Shown piece by piece: positions 3,258 to 38,454 of a stretch of 45,328 nucleotides of DNA. The number at the start of each line of letters is the position of its first letter. Position 1 is the stretch's first letter. The position numbers were made by a program, and so were the translations under genes. The notes below the pieces were generated by a model. That model made no database searches. It saw nothing but the letters and a program-made list of their open reading frames with translations, and was not told the DNA's origin. This stretch comes from Candidatus Gastranaerophilales bacterium (GTDB lineage: Bacteria > Cyanobacteriota > Vampirovibrionia > Gastranaerophilales > Gastranaerophilaceae). The stretch lies in NCBI GenBank assembly GCA_944323705.1, contig CALUTM010000010.1, forward strand, positions 1 to 45,328, read 5' to 3'.

Positions 3258-4151
3258 ATGGCAATTACGATTAACACAAACATTTCATCCCTCATCGTTC
3301 AATCAAATTTGAACAAAGCAACCAATTCACTGAACAGTGCAATTGAAAGAATGACCACAGGTTACAAAATTAACCACGCCGCAGACAACGCAGCAGGTTA
3401 TTCTATTGCAACAAACTGGGAAACTCAGTTGGGTTCTTTGGATGTTGCGGCAGACAACGCTGCAACCGGTGCAGACATGTTGACAACATTGGAAGACACT
3501 TATTCACTTGTATCTTCTCACTTACAGCGTGTCAGAGACTTGACAGAACAAGCTGCAAACGGCACTTACGGTTCTGATTCTTTGAAAGCAATTCAATCAG
3601 AAATTACCGCAAGACTTGAAGAAATTGACCGTATTGCTGCAAACTGTGAATTTAACGGTTTGAACATGATGGATGGTTCAATGAATAATGACATCTCTCT
3701 TCAAGTCGGTTTATACAGTGATGAATCAAGCCAAATTGCACTTGACGCTTCTTTATTCAAAGCAGGTGATGTTGCAACGCTATTCACCGATTATGGAGAG
3801 ACTCCAGATGCTACTATTGAAGAAGTCGCAAAATTGTGTTCCGGTTATGATAGTGATGCTAGCAAAATTGTAGGCGGTCAGGCTGAAATGCTTGATAAAA
3901 TTGATAAAGTAATAAATGAAATATCTGCTCGTACTACTACATTAGGTTCTGCTCAGAACAGAATTGAATCTGCAATAGAATCTATTGAAGTTCAATCAGA
4001 AAACATTACATCATCTCTATCAACCCTCAGAGACGCCGATGTAGCCGAAGAATCTTCAAACTATATAAAAGCACAAATATTACAACAGGCTTCAGCAACA
4101 TTGCTTGCTACAGCAAACCAAACACCAAGTATCGCATTGAACCTGTTATAA
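3258..4151 (+). CDS. Flagellin
   Basis: This 297-residue protein has both conserved flagellin ends. The N-terminal D0/D1 helix reads AITINTNISSLIVQSNLNKA and continues with ERMTTGYKINHAADNAAGYSI. The C-terminal helix includes RDADVAEESSNYIKAQILQQ and ends in a hydrophobic leucine-rich tail. The central region (about residues 135-195) is short and is the variable, surface-exposed part, so this is a small flagellin. A strong AAAGGAG site lies 7 nt before the ATG. No other structural flagellar gene adjoins it, although a FliA-like sigma gene and an FlhA C-domain homologue occur elsewhere in the window. I could not find a clear sigma-28 promoter in the 176-bp upstream spacer. Confidence 0.93.
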   Translation: MAITINTNISSLIVQSNLNKATNSLNSAIERMTTGYKINHAADNAAGYSIATNWETQLGSLDVAADNAATGADMLTTLEDTYSLVSSHLQRVRDLTEQAANGTYGSDSLKAIQSEITARLEEIDRIAANCEFNGLNMMDGSMNNDISLQVGLYSDESSQIALDASLFKAGDVATLFTDYGETPDATIEEVAKLCSGYDSDASKIVGGQAEMLDKIDKVINEISARTTTLGSAQNRIESAIESIEVQSENITSSLSTLRDADVAEESSNYIKAQILQQASATLLATANQTPSIALNLL

Positions 4152-33284: not shown

Positions 33285-35183
33285 TTGATTAGTCTGTCAG
33301 TTTTATATAAAAAAATAATCATATTTTTACTGGTGTTGGGAGCTTTAACAGCCCCCAGTTATGTTTACTCCGCAGAAGAAACAGATGAAGAACTGGATTA
33401 TATTGAAGAATCAGCTTACGACAGCAACACGGCCTACATTAACGATATTGAAATTCTCGGTTCAAATATTATAAAACCTGAATACATAATCTCCAAAATG
33501 TCACTCCAAAAAGGAGATTTATATGATAAAGATGCAATGCAGCAGGATTTGAGAACAATATATAAGTTGGGATATTTCACGGAAAAAATGAAAGCAATCC
33601 CCGTTAAAAATCCTAATGGTACAATCTCTTTAAAAATCATATTAGAGGAAAATATTCCCGTTACCGATTTTACAATTGAGGGAAATACCGTCGTCTCCAG
33701 TGACGAAATTATGAGATACCTGCTTCCGCTGAAAGGAAAACCCCAAAATATTGCAGCCATAAATCAGGCTATGGAACAGATAAACGAATGCTACTATTCA
33801 AAAGGCTATATACTTTCAAAGATAGACTCCATTTATGATGACCCCGACGGAACACTAAATTTAAGTATTACCGAGGGAAAAATCAACAAAATAATGATAA
33901 CGGGAAATGAAAAAACAAAAGAATATATCATTGAACGAAACATCATGACAGAACCCGGCACCGTTTACAATGAAAATCAGGTTAAACAGGATCTGGTCAG
34001 GCTATACTCCACACAAGCGTTTAAAGATGTTAACCGAACAATAGAAGTCTCGGAAGAAGATCCTGATTTATTTGATATAACAATTGAGCTTAAAGAACAG
34101 AGAACAGCTTCCGTTTCGGTCGGTGGCGGTTTGGATTCCGCAACGGGTGCTTTTGGTTCGCTCGGAATTTCAGACAACAACTTCAGAGGGATGAATCAGA
34201 GGGTATCACTTACGGGTATGGTCGGTTCAGGTATCCTGATGAGCGATTCCTCCATCAAAAACCACATGAATTATCAGGCTGAATTGAGCTTTTTTGAACC
34301 GCATTTCCTAAATTCCGATAACTCCCTTATGAGCCGTATTTATTTCAGAGATTTGGGAAGTTATCAGATACCTCTTGCCATTGAAAGAAGAATTGGTATT
34401 GAAGGCACTGTTGCACACAGATTGCGGTTCAACAAACGTCTTTCTACCACGTTTACCGTCGGAGGAGAATATATCAATCTGTCGGAAGGCGATATTCATA
34501 ATATCACTAATCTTTACAAACAACACAACCTTGATATTGCTGACAGAGCAAAACAATTGGAAGGCGGTTATTTCTTAAGATTTGCTCCGGGCTTGGCGTA
34601 TGATTCAAGAGACTCCGCAGTACTTCCCCGCCACGGAGCTTTAGCATCGGTAAGATTTGAAGAAGCTTTCGGACTGGACGGTTTCGGAAAAACGAACGGA
34701 CGTTTAACCGGTATGGCTAAAAAATACTTCCCGATTGCAAAGAAATCTTCTTTAACATTGACAGGAAGAGGCGGCATCAAAATTCACGGTTCGGATATGC
34801 CTGAAGTTATGGCATATCGTTTGGGTGGTCCTTATACCATCAGAGGATACAAGGTTAACGGCGTCGGTACTGGTACATCGTTTATCATGGGTTCTGTAGA
34901 GCTTGCTACTCCGATACCGTTTGTTGACAGGTTAAAAGTTAATTTCCTGCAAAACCTCAGGTTGACATTCTGGGTTGATGCCGGACGTGTATTTGATCCT
35001 ACAATTTCAAGCGTTTTGTATGACAGACCCATCCAGGCAATTACTGCAGGTATCGGCTTAAAGATAAATATGCCGGGTATCGGACCGTTGTCTGTTGATT
35101 ACGGTTTCCCGCTTACAAACCCCGGACCGAACGGTTCGCCTAACGGATACTTTACGTTTGGGGTAGGTGACATGATGTACTAA
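33285..35183 (+). CDS. bamA: Omp85/BamA outer-membrane assembly factor
   Basis: Translation starts at TTG 33285 (GGAG 8 nt upstream); the next Met is too far inside. The 632-residue chain has a signal peptide (IIIFLLVLGALTAPSYVYSA). Three POTRA domains follow, recognised by repeats of the type YINDIEILGSNIIKPEYIIS, FTIEGNTVVSSDEIMRYL and IMITGNEKTKEYIIERNI. A 16-strand barrel begins near residue 275 (SVSVGGGLDSATGAFG) and contains the lid-lock motif YTIRGYKVNG. BamA of E. coli has five POTRAs; three is typical of cyanobacterial Omp85. It inserts beta-barrel proteins in the outer membrane. ompH follows directly. Confidence 0.92.
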   Translation: MISLSVLYKKIIIFLLVLGALTAPSYVYSAEETDEELDYIEESAYDSNTAYINDIEILGSNIIKPEYIISKMSLQKGDLYDKDAMQQDLRTIYKLGYFTEKMKAIPVKNPNGTISLKIILEENIPVTDFTIEGNTVVSSDEIMRYLLPLKGKPQNIAAINQAMEQINECYYSKGYILSKIDSIYDDPDGTLNLSITEGKINKIMITGNEKTKEYIIERNIMTEPGTVYNENQVKQDLVRLYSTQAFKDVNRTIEVSEEDPDLFDITIELKEQRTASVSVGGGLDSATGAFGSLGISDNNFRGMNQRVSLTGMVGSGILMSDSSIKNHMNYQAELSFFEPHFLNSDNSLMSRIYFRDLGSYQIPLAIERRIGIEGTVAHRLRFNKRLSTTFTVGGEYINLSEGDIHNITNLYKQHNLDIADRAKQLEGGYFLRFAPGLAYDSRDSAVLPRHGALASVRFEEAFGLDGFGKTNGRLTGMAKKYFPIAKKSSLTLTGRGGIKIHGSDMPEVMAYRLGGPYTIRGYKVNGVGTGTSFIMGSVELATPIPFVDRLKVNFLQNLRLTFWVDAGRVFDPTISSVLYDRPIQAITAGIGLKINMPGIGPLSVDYGFPLTNPGPNGSPNGYFTFGVGDMMY

Positions 35184-35196
35184 GATAGTGTATAAT
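35167..35196 (+). promoter_or_regulatory. Internal promoter for ompH
   Basis: GTGACA (35167-35172), an 18-bp spacer and TATAAT (35191-35196), inside and just past the end of bamA. This would allow ompH expression beyond bamA read-through. Confidence 0.5.
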
Positions 35197-35220
35197 GTAA
35201 AATTATATAGGAGGATTTGT

Positions 35221-35670
35221 ATGAAAAAATTTAAATTAGGAATTGTGGCGTTAGCAATGATAGCCTTTACAGGAATAGCAAATGCCGGAGGCGTCGGATA
35301 TATTGATTATGCTAAAGTAATTGATAATTACGATTATGCCAAACAGGTTACCAAAGAAATTGATGCCAAAGGACTCGAAATGCAACAATTTCTTGTTGAT
35401 AAAGAAAAAGAGTATAAATCATTGGACACTCCTTTGAAAAAACAAACATTTGAAGAAAAAGTAGCACAGGAATTTAAAACCAAAGAAGCTGCATACGTTT
35501 CTTTAAAGACAAAAAGAGAACAAGAAGTTTTTACCAAAATCAAAGATGCGGCAAAAGCAGTAATGGTTGAACAAAAGCTTGATGCCGTCATGGATGTTCG
35601 CGGAGTTTTTGTCGGCGGAGTTGATATCACCGATAGTGTTATTGCTAAATTGAAGGGTGCTAAAAAATAA
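35221..35670 (+). CDS. OmpH/Skp-like periplasmic chaperone
   Basis: ATG 35221, with AGGAGG 8 nt before it, gives 149 residues. A signal peptide (MKKFKLGIVALAMIAFTGIA, cut after NAG) is followed by GVGYIDYAKVIDNYDYAKQV, a long coiled-coil (about 45-110, KEKEYKSLDTPLKKQTFEEK), and a closing strand AVMDVRGVFVGGVDITDSVI. This is the Skp/OmpH fold, which holds unfolded outer-membrane proteins for BamA. The gene lies 37 nt after bamA, the same neighbourhood as in many Gram-negative bacteria. Its stop shares a base with the start of the nucleoside phosphorylase (TAATG). Confidence 0.92.
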   Translation: MKKFKLGIVALAMIAFTGIANAGGVGYIDYAKVIDNYDYAKQVTKEIDAKGLEMQQFLVDKEKEYKSLDTPLKKQTFEEKVAQEFKTKEAAYVSLKTKREQEVFTKIKDAAKAVMVEQKLDAVMDVRGVFVGGVDITDSVIAKLKGAKK

Positions 35671-37001
35671 TGAATGTGATAGACCTGATTGAAAAGAAAA
35701 AGCAGGGCAAAACTCATTCAAAGGAAGAAATCAACTTTATCGTTAAATCACTTATGAATGGGACCGCTCTGGATTCTCAAATTTCTGCCTGGCTAATGGC
35801 AGTTTGTTTCAAAGGTCTGACGGAAGAAGAAACAGCAAACCTTACCGAAGCTCTTGCGTCTTCCGGTAAGGTTGTTGATTTTGGAGAACTCAGTAATCTG
35901 GTTGTTGATAAACATTCAACGGGCGGGGTCGGAGATAAGGTTACTATCACATTAATTCCGCTGCTTGCAGCCGCAGGAATTCCCGTAGCCAAATTGGCGG
36001 ATAGAGGGTTGGGTATCGCAGCAGGCACGGTTGATAAACTGGAATCAATACCCCACCTAAACACCAACTTATCCACAGAAACAATTGTTAATCAGGTTAA
36101 AAATATAAATGCAGTAATCGCATCTCAGGCGGATGACTTGGCTCCGGCTGATAAAAAGCTCTATTCACTGAGAAATCTTACAGGTACGGCTGACAGTGAG
36201 GTGTTAATAGCCTCCTCAATAATTTCAAAAAAAATTGCCTCAGGTGCTGCTAACATTATATTAGATGTAAAATACGGTGCGGGAGCTTTTATGAAAACGC
36301 CGGAGGAAGCAGTTCACCTTTCCAAATTAATGGTAAATATCGGGAAAATGGTCAACAAATCCGTTACGGCAATTATTACCTCTATGGAGGAACCTCTGGG
36401 AAGAGCAGTCGGAAATTCACTGGAAGTTATTGAAGCAATTGAATTTCTTAAAGGTAGAATTGAAACAGGAGATTTGGCTCTGCTTACATACTCAATAGCC
36501 TCTATGACACTTATGCAGTTAGATTTATATGACGATAAAGAAGAAGCTATAAGATATCTGAAAGATTTGGTTCATACAGGAAAGGCTCTTGAAAAATTCA
36601 GAGAACTTATTATCGCACAGGGCGGGGCGGTAGAAGTTATTGATAACTACGACAAATTTGACTTGCCGTCCTTTAAAGTAGAATGTGAGTCAAAAAAGAG
36701 CGGATATGTACAAAACGTAAATGCTTACCACATCGCTCAAGCGGCTAAAATACTCGGTACAGGAAGGGATGATAATTCTAAAAAAATTGATTTCAGTGTC
36801 GGCATATATCTCAATAAAAAAAGCGGCGAATATGTGAATAAAGGAGAAACTTTATACACAATATATTCAAATGATGAAGACAAAACAAAAATAGCTCAAA
36901 AGTATTGCGACGAAGCATTCTCTATAAACGAAAGCAAACCCTTACGCAATAATTTGATTTATAAAATTATAGGAAACAAAGACGAGGATAACAATGTTTA
37001 A
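35670..37001 (+). CDS. Pyrimidine-nucleoside / thymidine phosphorylase
   Basis: This 443-residue protein belongs to nucleoside phosphorylase family II. Signature segments are VVDKHSTGGVGDKVTITLIP, AKLADRGLGIAAGTVDKLES, SLRNLTGTADS and the phosphate-binding DVKYGAGAFMKTPEEA. It splits thymidine or uridine to base plus (deoxy)ribose-1-phosphate. Together with udp at 25251 it indicates pyrimidine salvage. One base overlaps the ompH stop and 8 nt overlap the following FlhA-like gene, so it is translated in series. DeoA and Pdp cannot be told apart by eye. Confidence 0.93.
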   Translation: MNVIDLIEKKKQGKTHSKEEINFIVKSLMNGTALDSQISAWLMAVCFKGLTEEETANLTEALASSGKVVDFGELSNLVVDKHSTGGVGDKVTITLIPLLAAAGIPVAKLADRGLGIAAGTVDKLESIPHLNTNLSTETIVNQVKNINAVIASQADDLAPADKKLYSLRNLTGTADSEVLIASSIISKKIASGAANIILDVKYGAGAFMKTPEEAVHLSKLMVNIGKMVNKSVTAIITSMEEPLGRAVGNSLEVIEAIEFLKGRIETGDLALLTYSIASMTLMQLDLYDDKEEAIRYLKDLVHTGKALEKFRELIIAQGGAVEVIDNYDKFDLPSFKVECESKKSGYVQNVNAYHIAQAAKILGTGRDDNSKKIDFSVGIYLNKKSGEYVNKGETLYTIYSNDEDKTKIAQKYCDEAFSINESKPLRNNLIYKIIGNKDEDNNV

Positions 37002-38454
37002 CAAAAAGATGCAGTACGTAATAAAATCAGTACCTACCGATGACAAACAGGCTTTGGAAAATCTGTTGAACGAAATGTCCGATGCCGGGTGGGACTTGTA
37101 TACTATGCATGAGATTGAAACAGATTCATCTTTTGATTTTAACTGTATTTTTATGCGTGAAAAACAGGAAGAAGATCTGCCTGATTTGGACGACATTGTT
37201 AACATCACAAGCTTTAAGTATAGGATGGAAAAAATGCTTGCTGCTCCTTCCAGTCCTTACGCTTCGTGTAAAGAAATCCAATTAAAAATTTCGAACCAAA
37301 AAGAGCGTATAAGAAGAATAAAATCACAATTGGAAAGCGAAAATCTTTCGCCCGAGAAAAAAAATCAACTTAACAATCAGATGTCGGATGAATTGAGACA
37401 GTTGGATTCTCTAAAACAACAACTGGTCAATGAAATTTCGCCGGAGACAATGTATTCAAACATTAAAGAAGAAAAGTTTGTCGTCAACCTATCGGAAGAA
37501 ATTCTGGAAGTTATCTCTATGGATGAAACTGATAACCTTTTGGCAGAAACCGTAAAAATCCGACAAAATTTAACAGAAAAACTCGGATATGTTATTCCGC
37601 ATATTCATTTCCATAACAGCGATGAACTGTTGCAAAACGAGTTCAGCATAAAACTTCATGATATCGAAGTTTTCCGCACGGTAGTTTTTCCGGGATATCT
37701 GGCTTTTTACAAAGATGATTTGAAGGGATACAAGACAGATGAAGATGATTATGTATTAAATGATGATATTACGGGACGAAAAATTATATGGATACAAAAA
37801 GACAAAGTTAAGGATTTTTGGATTAGGGGACTTTCCGCTGCCGAATACATCGCGAAAGCAATTGAGTATATCTCAATAAGAGAAGTATCAGACATTATGG
37901 ATTACAACGATATTAATAAATACGTAGAAATCGTAATGGAGAGCAACTCTTTTCTTGTCGATAATATAATACCCGATTTTATCACAGCTTCGGACTTAAA
38001 ATATCTGCTGACCTGTCTGATAAGAGAAGGGGTTTCCGTAAAAAATATTGTCTATATATTTGAAAAAATAAATGACTATGCAAATGAACCGACAAAAGAA
38101 GATTTATTGGACAAGGTGCGTTTAGCTCTGTCAAAACATATTATTAAAGATTTGGTCGAAGACGAAGAATTAAAAGTCATAGAGTTTTCTGACGAAACTC
38201 TTGATAAAATATATTCATTCTTCAAAGAGGACGATGATGTCATACGCATTGAAGCAAACGACGTGCAAGATATTATCAACAAACTTAACAAATTTATGAA
38301 AACAAAGAAAATAAGAAAACCGATTCTTGTTACACCGATGGATATAAGGCATATGGTGTTCGTTATCCTCTCGGAATTTGCACAAAATATCACGGTTCTT
38401 GCTCAAGAAGAGCTTGTAAGTGACTATAACATAAAATTTATAGGTAAAATATAA
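36994..38454 (+). CDS. Soluble FlhA C-domain-like protein with DUF4177-like N-terminus
   Basis: This 486-residue protein has no membrane segment. Residues 5-55 (KMQYVIKSVPTDDKQALENL ... GWDLYTMHEIE ... FNCIFMRE) look like a DUF4177-type domain, then a coiled-coil (about 90-140). From about 155 on it tracks the cytoplasmic domain of the flagellar export-gate protein FlhA: TVKIRQNLTEKLGYVIPHIH, VFPGYLAFYK, IIWIQKDKVKDFWIRGLSAA, NIIPDFITASDLKYLLTCLI, REGVSVKNIVYIFEKINDYA, and the end KPILVTPMDIRHMVFVILSE ... NITVLAQEELVSD. The roughly 300-residue gate-forming membrane part of FlhA is missing. It overlaps the phosphorylase by 8 nt. Role unknown; a cytosolic docking platform is conceivable. Confidence 0.82.
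   Translation: MFNKKMQYVIKSVPTDDKQALENLLNEMSDAGWDLYTMHEIETDSSFDFNCIFMREKQEEDLPDLDDIVNITSFKYRMEKMLAAPSSPYASCKEIQLKISNQKERIRRIKSQLESENLSPEKKNQLNNQMSDELRQLDSLKQQLVNEISPETMYSNIKEEKFVVNLSEEILEVISMDETDNLLAETVKIRQNLTEKLGYVIPHIHFHNSDELLQNEFSIKLHDIEVFRTVVFPGYLAFYKDDLKGYKTDEDDYVLNDDITGRKIIWIQKDKVKDFWIRGLSAAEYIAKAIEYISIREVSDIMDYNDINKYVEIVMESNSFLVDNIIPDFITASDLKYLLTCLIREGVSVKNIVYIFEKINDYANEPTKEDLLDKVRLALSKHIIKDLVEDEELKVIEFSDETLDKIYSFFKEDDDVIRIEANDVQDIINKLNKFMKTKKIRKPILVTPMDIRHMVFVILSEFAQNITVLAQEELVSDYNIKFIGKI

Follow-up and report, generated by a model that had tools for sequence, protein, structure and literature searches.

The open reading frame at positions 36994-38454 (+ strand, ATG start, 486 aa) encodes a true FlhA cytoplasmic domain without its membrane gate, hereafter free FlhA-C. 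It lies in a 45,328-nucleotide stretch of contig CALUTM010000010.1 of a Candidatus Gastranaerophilales bacterium (GCA_944323705.1), a member of a gut group related to cyanobacteria, and this whole stretch is referred to as the window. The protein has about an even chance of being a soluble, neofunctionalised accessory export-platform subunit of a second flagellar-type export system (system B), distinct from the true flagellum (system A). The gene, its parts and its upstream neighbours, all on the + strand of the window, are as follows:

33285..35183 (+), BamA/Omp85, upstream neighbour (Pfam)
35188..35670 (+), OmpH/Skp, upstream neighbour (Pfam)
35670..37001 (+), pyrimidine nucleoside phosphorylase, its end overlapping the start of free FlhA-C (Pfam)
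36994..38454 (+), soluble FlhA-C paralogue, entire gene, 486 aa
36994..37161 (+), DUF4177-like beta-alpha-beta-beta domain, residues 1-56 (weak PF13783 matches in orthologues and modelled fold)
37252..37443 (+), helical hairpin, residues 87-150 (model; helix 2 aligns with the FlhA2 post-membrane linker)
37444..38451 (+), FlhA-C domains D1-D4, residues 151-486 (Pfam match and fold)

Residues 130-477 match positions 321-655 of the 657 in the Pfam profile FHIPEP (PF00771; 2e-45); the score of 155.9 bits exceeds the cut-off of 29.1, and profile positions 1-320 are unmatched. The same curated cut-off is passed by all 23 of the 23 orthologues. The top PDB match by phmmer is FlhA-C of B. subtilis (3mix, 7.8e-19). 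The AF2 model of the protein (mean pLDDT 79) gave exclusively FlhA-C and SctV-C as top matches in Foldseek (6ch2 at 3e-20, TMt 0.84), and its alignment with 6ch2 in VIA-align reached Z 29.6 over 321 residues, on a scale where full-length FlhA-C/SctV-C chains score Z ≥ 22.7 and unrelated chains Z ≤ 9. The assignment of the C-terminal part to FlhA-C in the preliminary description is thus confirmed by both profile and structure searches. On the NCBIfam equivalog models the protein scores 134.9 bits for FlhA, far under the cut-off of 772.1, and 88.3 bits for SctV against a cut-off of 692.25. No transmembrane segment is present: the maximum hydropathy over 19 residues is 1.33 and no segment reaches 1.6, as had been claimed from the translation, and the same scan finds 7-9 segments at ≥ 1.6 in full-length FlhA proteins.

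In the model, a helical hairpin and, ahead of it, a DUF4177-like domain take the place of the membrane half. The N-terminal domain is conserved among the orthologues, and 31 of 32 orthologue N-domains match PF13783 (DUF4177), weakly, with a best value of 6.6e-5; the window protein itself gives E 0.077 and 13.7 bits against a gathering score of 25. Taken on its own, the N-domain had no sequence match in PDB and no significant match in Foldseek. The DUF4177-like domain of the preliminary description is therefore supported weakly and consistently, and the coiled coil described with it is modelled as a hairpin (residues 88-148). Alignment puts the second hairpin helix opposite the FlhA2 segment that comes after the final membrane helix, so the point of replacement is placed at the end of the membrane domain. 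Since only the C-terminal part of the FHIPEP profile is matched, a pseudogene, a split gene or a mis-assembled full-length flhA was considered. The probability of such an artefact is negligible: the same architecture with its conserved N-domain recurs throughout the order, dN/dS is about 0.03, and separate full-length flhA copies exist in the same genome; on these grounds a pseudogene or split gene was rejected.

Free FlhA-C is present in 141 of the 146 genomes of the window's family by a listing count, the exceptions being G002, G003, G031, G079 and G089. It was found in 41 of 42 close relatives, among them all 17 genomes that represent six other families of the order. Most named records are Candidatus Gastranaerophilales or Melainabacteria assemblies. 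Among the genomes checked, families of the class outside the order have full-length FlhA only, or none; G189, from a family outside the order, carries short FlhA pieces. No relatives were detected in the viral contigs searched. Purifying selection is strong, with a median dN/dS of 0.027 from four unsaturated pairs only.

The start codon of free FlhA-C lies inside the 3' end of the phosphorylase gene, and Pfam identified the neighbours as Omp85, OmpH/Skp and pyrimidine phosphorylase, in line with the Omp85 and nucleoside salvage genes of the preliminary description. Genes for bamA and skp precede free FlhA-C in 12 of the 20 family loci examined; the bamA-skp-phosphorylase neighbourhood is not common in other families, and housekeeping genes are the neighbours at most loci. 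This context says little about function. Which nucleoside phosphorylase is encoded between skp and the FlhA-C gene depends on the genus: the pyrimidine enzyme gives way to a purine-type one in several other genera (window 33285-37001, L042-L048). A flagellin gene is located in the window at 3258-4151 (+), about 33 kb from free FlhA-C (Flagellin_N 2.2e-31, Flagellin_C 1.7e-23); it is one of several Flagellin_N matches in the genome. On a short contig of G165 (L065 2975-7428, -), a single recombinase gene separates the FlhA-C gene from flhA1, an arrangement that is either a rearrangement or a mis-assembly.

The check for full-length flhA elsewhere in the genome returned two, FlhA1 in a fliPQR-flhB-flhA1 locus and FlhA2 in a fliE-fliF-x-fliH-flhA2 locus. 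Gene x occupies the fliG position of system B and is not called FliG, because it has no FliG match in Pfam. A second FliO-FliP-FliQ-FliR set is found at a separate locus together with a FliM/N-domain protein, and two FliP were counted in most of the 42 relatives. In trees of the cytoplasmic domain all free copies form one clade (support 100/100), on a long branch, and this clade falls on the FlhA2 side, away from FlhA1 (support 100/100). By these trees free FlhA-C is a paralogue of FlhA2 and not of FlhA1, and an origin from the flagellar FlhA1 finds no support in them. The comparison of a duplication before with one after the split of the order from its sister families gave an AU p of 0.163.

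Co-occurrence was followed in 55 genomes of 36 genera, 23 with and 32 without flagellin. The 23 genomes with flagellin are exactly those that have FlhA1 and FliF-A; FlhA2 and FliF-B are present in 54. Every one of the 32 flagellin-less genomes has exactly one FliP. These 32 encode zero to three Flg_bbr_C proteins, mostly two, with lengths near 150 and 240 residues, and proteins as large as those of the hook or its associated parts are absent; six to eight Flg_bbr_C proteins were counted in the flagellated genomes tested. In one flagellin-less genome the genes flgF-flgG-flgB-flgC-slt-fliE-fliF-x-fliH-flhA2-fliI stand in a row. The search for a system B FliJ yielded candidates of about 160-170 aa, all below threshold. 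Judged from gene content, these data point to a second rod-type export system, flagellin-less and hook-less, that is kept without flagella:

L074 8490-18860 and 32 flagellin-less genomes, second flagellar-type export system with rod genes, no hook or flagellin

Two proteins that start with MGMAASQAR and belong to no Pfam family (L058 8026-9126, +; L056 11780-13087, +) are possible export substrates, from the look of the N-terminus only; one of them shares a contig with flhA2.

Two flhA are among 13 flagellar genes shared by Melainabacteria (Di Rienzi 2013, PMC3787301), and four Melainabacteria genomes, one of them without a full flagellum, have in common two flhA along with fliF, fliH, fliI, fliPQR, flhB, flgC and flgG (PMC3787301). 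Such genes were taken as partial flagellar sets (Soo 2014, PMC4040986; PMC5877343; PMC3787301). The 'incomplete flagellar gene sets' of Melainabacteria (PMC3787301, PMC4040986) comprise the same kinds of genes as system B; however, those reports describe one flagellum partly lost, whereas here a second system stands beside a complete flagellar set in the flagellated genomes.

Free FlhA-C occurs in 53 of the 55 genomes, that is in all 23 flagellated and in 30 of the 32 non-flagellated ones, and flagellation changes six times on the tree of the free protein itself (44 genomes). Because it is kept with FlhA2 and FliF-B when flagella are absent, the gene tracks system B; the co-occurrence raised in the preliminary description is borne out as a link to a second, non-flagellar export system and not to the flagellum. 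Since both the gene and system B are near-universal in the family, co-occurrence has little variation to test. Three genomes, all drafts, depart from the pattern: in G002 and G003 system B is present but no free copy was found, and G045 has a free copy and FliP and no FlhA2/FliF locus. At none of the loci examined is free FlhA-C inside the system B operon. In the genus g47 it is placed directly upstream of fliJ-fliK-flgD-flgE. This cluster was considered as part of system B and rejected; it belongs to the flagellum, because strong FliJ matches and hook-sized proteins are confined to flagellated genomes. That the free protein might instead be an export factor of the true flagellum is highly improbable: the g47 cluster of flagellated genomes speaks for such a role, but this context is seen in one genus only, the gene is kept in 30 of the 32 genomes that lack flagellin, FlhA1 and FliF-A, and the trees derive it from the FlhA2 side.

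In Salmonella FlhA, D456, F459 and T490 line the chaperone-binding dimple, and G368 in the GYXLI motif has a role in switching (PMC10965912). The corresponding positions were read from a MAFFT alignment of distant proteins (63 free copies, 21 full-length), in which G368 is Ser in 58 of 63 free copies and Gly in one, compared with Gly in 21 of 21 full-length proteins. At position F459, 58 of 63 free copies have Thr or Ser; at T490, 47 of 63 carry Arg or Lys, against Thr in 19 of 21 full-length proteins; the aligned FlhA2 has Tyr at F459 and retains T490. D456 is retained in 60, R391 in 63 and E559 in 62 of the 63 free copies. As read from this alignment, the scaffold is kept in the free copies and the docking and switch sites are rebuilt. 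The 'adaptor' role proposed in the preliminary description was based on a free chaperone-docking ring; because the dimple is altered in most orthologues, a simple ring of this kind is unlikely.

The loss of the docking and switch residues would also suit a scaffold outside secretion, in which the FlhA-C fold was recruited to another cytosolic task, perhaps linked to the adjacent envelope or nucleoside genes. This is unlikely: housekeeping neighbours at most loci and the retention of the gene in G045 without an FlhA2/FliF locus agree with it, but the neighbours vary between families and the link to the system B gate is nearly constant. Quite unlikely is an inhibitor or decoy of system B that blocks assembly of the FlhA2 ring or holds FliJ via the hairpin and so times export. 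Descent from FlhA2, the shared linker and the lost switch motif are compatible with such a protein; nothing, however, is specific to inhibition, and the conserved extra N-terminal domain suggests more.

An accessory export-platform subunit of system B is the reading preferred here, because of the fold, the conservation, the selection, the placement of the trees on the FlhA2 side and the shared linker, and likewise because of the phyletic pattern, the single FliP, the six changes of flagellation and the rebuilt dimple and GYXLI with R391/E559 kept. Against this reading are the operon location, which was never seen, the flagellar neighbours in g47 and the exceptions G002, G003 and G045. For the partner and mechanism within system B we infer the following course. 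The cytoplasmic half of FlhA2, including the post-membrane linker, would have been duplicated close to the base of the order, and in the copy a DUF4177-like domain plus one additional helix would have taken the place of the membrane gate. The FlhA-C body would have kept its ability to fold and may associate with FlhA2 or with further copies of itself; as dimple and switch motif are rebuilt, the usual chaperones would probably not be docked by it. At the FlhA2 ring, free FlhA-C could then help with docking or sorting as an accessory subunit, leaving its N-terminal domain and its own conserved surfaces to receive another cargo or regulator.

As currently understood, FlhA and SctV form nonamers anchored in the membrane. 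Free FlhA-C resembles FlhA/SctV (PF00771) in the four-domain FlhA-C fold and the kept R391/E559, but differs in lacking the membrane gate, in carrying the DUF4177-like domain and helix, and in the rebuilt GYXLI and dimple. FlhA2 is similar in being the nearest relative in the trees, in the shared linker and in a near-identical range within the family; unlike free FlhA-C, it has retained its membrane domain, and proteins of the FlhA2 type are found beyond the order as well, where free FlhA-C was not seen in the genomes checked. Helicobacter HP1575/FlhX, which we take to be a free homologue of the FlhB C-terminus, would likewise be a soluble counterpart of an export gate's cytoplasmic part, but from a different gate protein. 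Somewhat short of an even chance is given to the wider proposal that Gastranaerophilales possess a dedicated hook-less, flagellin-less secretion machine of flagellar type, with a platform made of two parts, a ring of FlhA2 in the membrane and a soluble FlhA-C paralogue. To our knowledge, a two-component membrane/soluble sorting platform is known from no type III system. If the proposal holds, the so-called flagellar remnants would amount to a functional secretion system in a major gut bacterial group. With a soluble paralogue kept throughout the order and its motifs rebuilt, nature provides a way to ask what FlhA-C can do only when attached to the membrane gate. The same protein draws attention to a second export system, conserved in gut Melainabacteria without flagellin and so far classed as an incomplete flagellum. 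Free FlhA-C was found unreported in the open-access literature searched; as far as that literature shows, the architecture, the order-wide conservation and the tie to the second system are undescribed, and the fold family is known.

Judging from further proteins, the FlhA-C domain has been reused several times in the order Gastranaerophilales. In G156, from the same genus, a 995-aa protein (L062 5697-8684, +) unites in a single chain a stretch like the product of gene x, a pair of hydrophobic segments, an FlhA-C domain and a type III ATPase domain (FHIPEP 8.5e-56, ATP-synt_ab 1.9e-38, T3SS_ATPase_C 7.4e-14), with the domains in the gene order of system B. A 593-aa protein (L242 4042-5823, -) consists of a fliG-position-like stretch, membrane helices and FlhA-C. 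Other FlhA-C fragments are encoded at L254 2972-3979 (+), L243 3146-4036 (+), L244 3567-4424 (+) and L245 5804-6520 (+); including L242, the fragment proteins are 238-593 aa long, and membrane helices are present in some. FlhA-C also occurs in miniature proteins of about 210-225 aa, at L063 848-1489 (-) and L245 4037-4684 (-) and in L247, L248, L249, L250, L251, L252 and L253. The miniatures skip D2 and the C-terminal part and are patchy in genus and family; in G128 and G150 they adjoin gyrB and flagellar filament genes.
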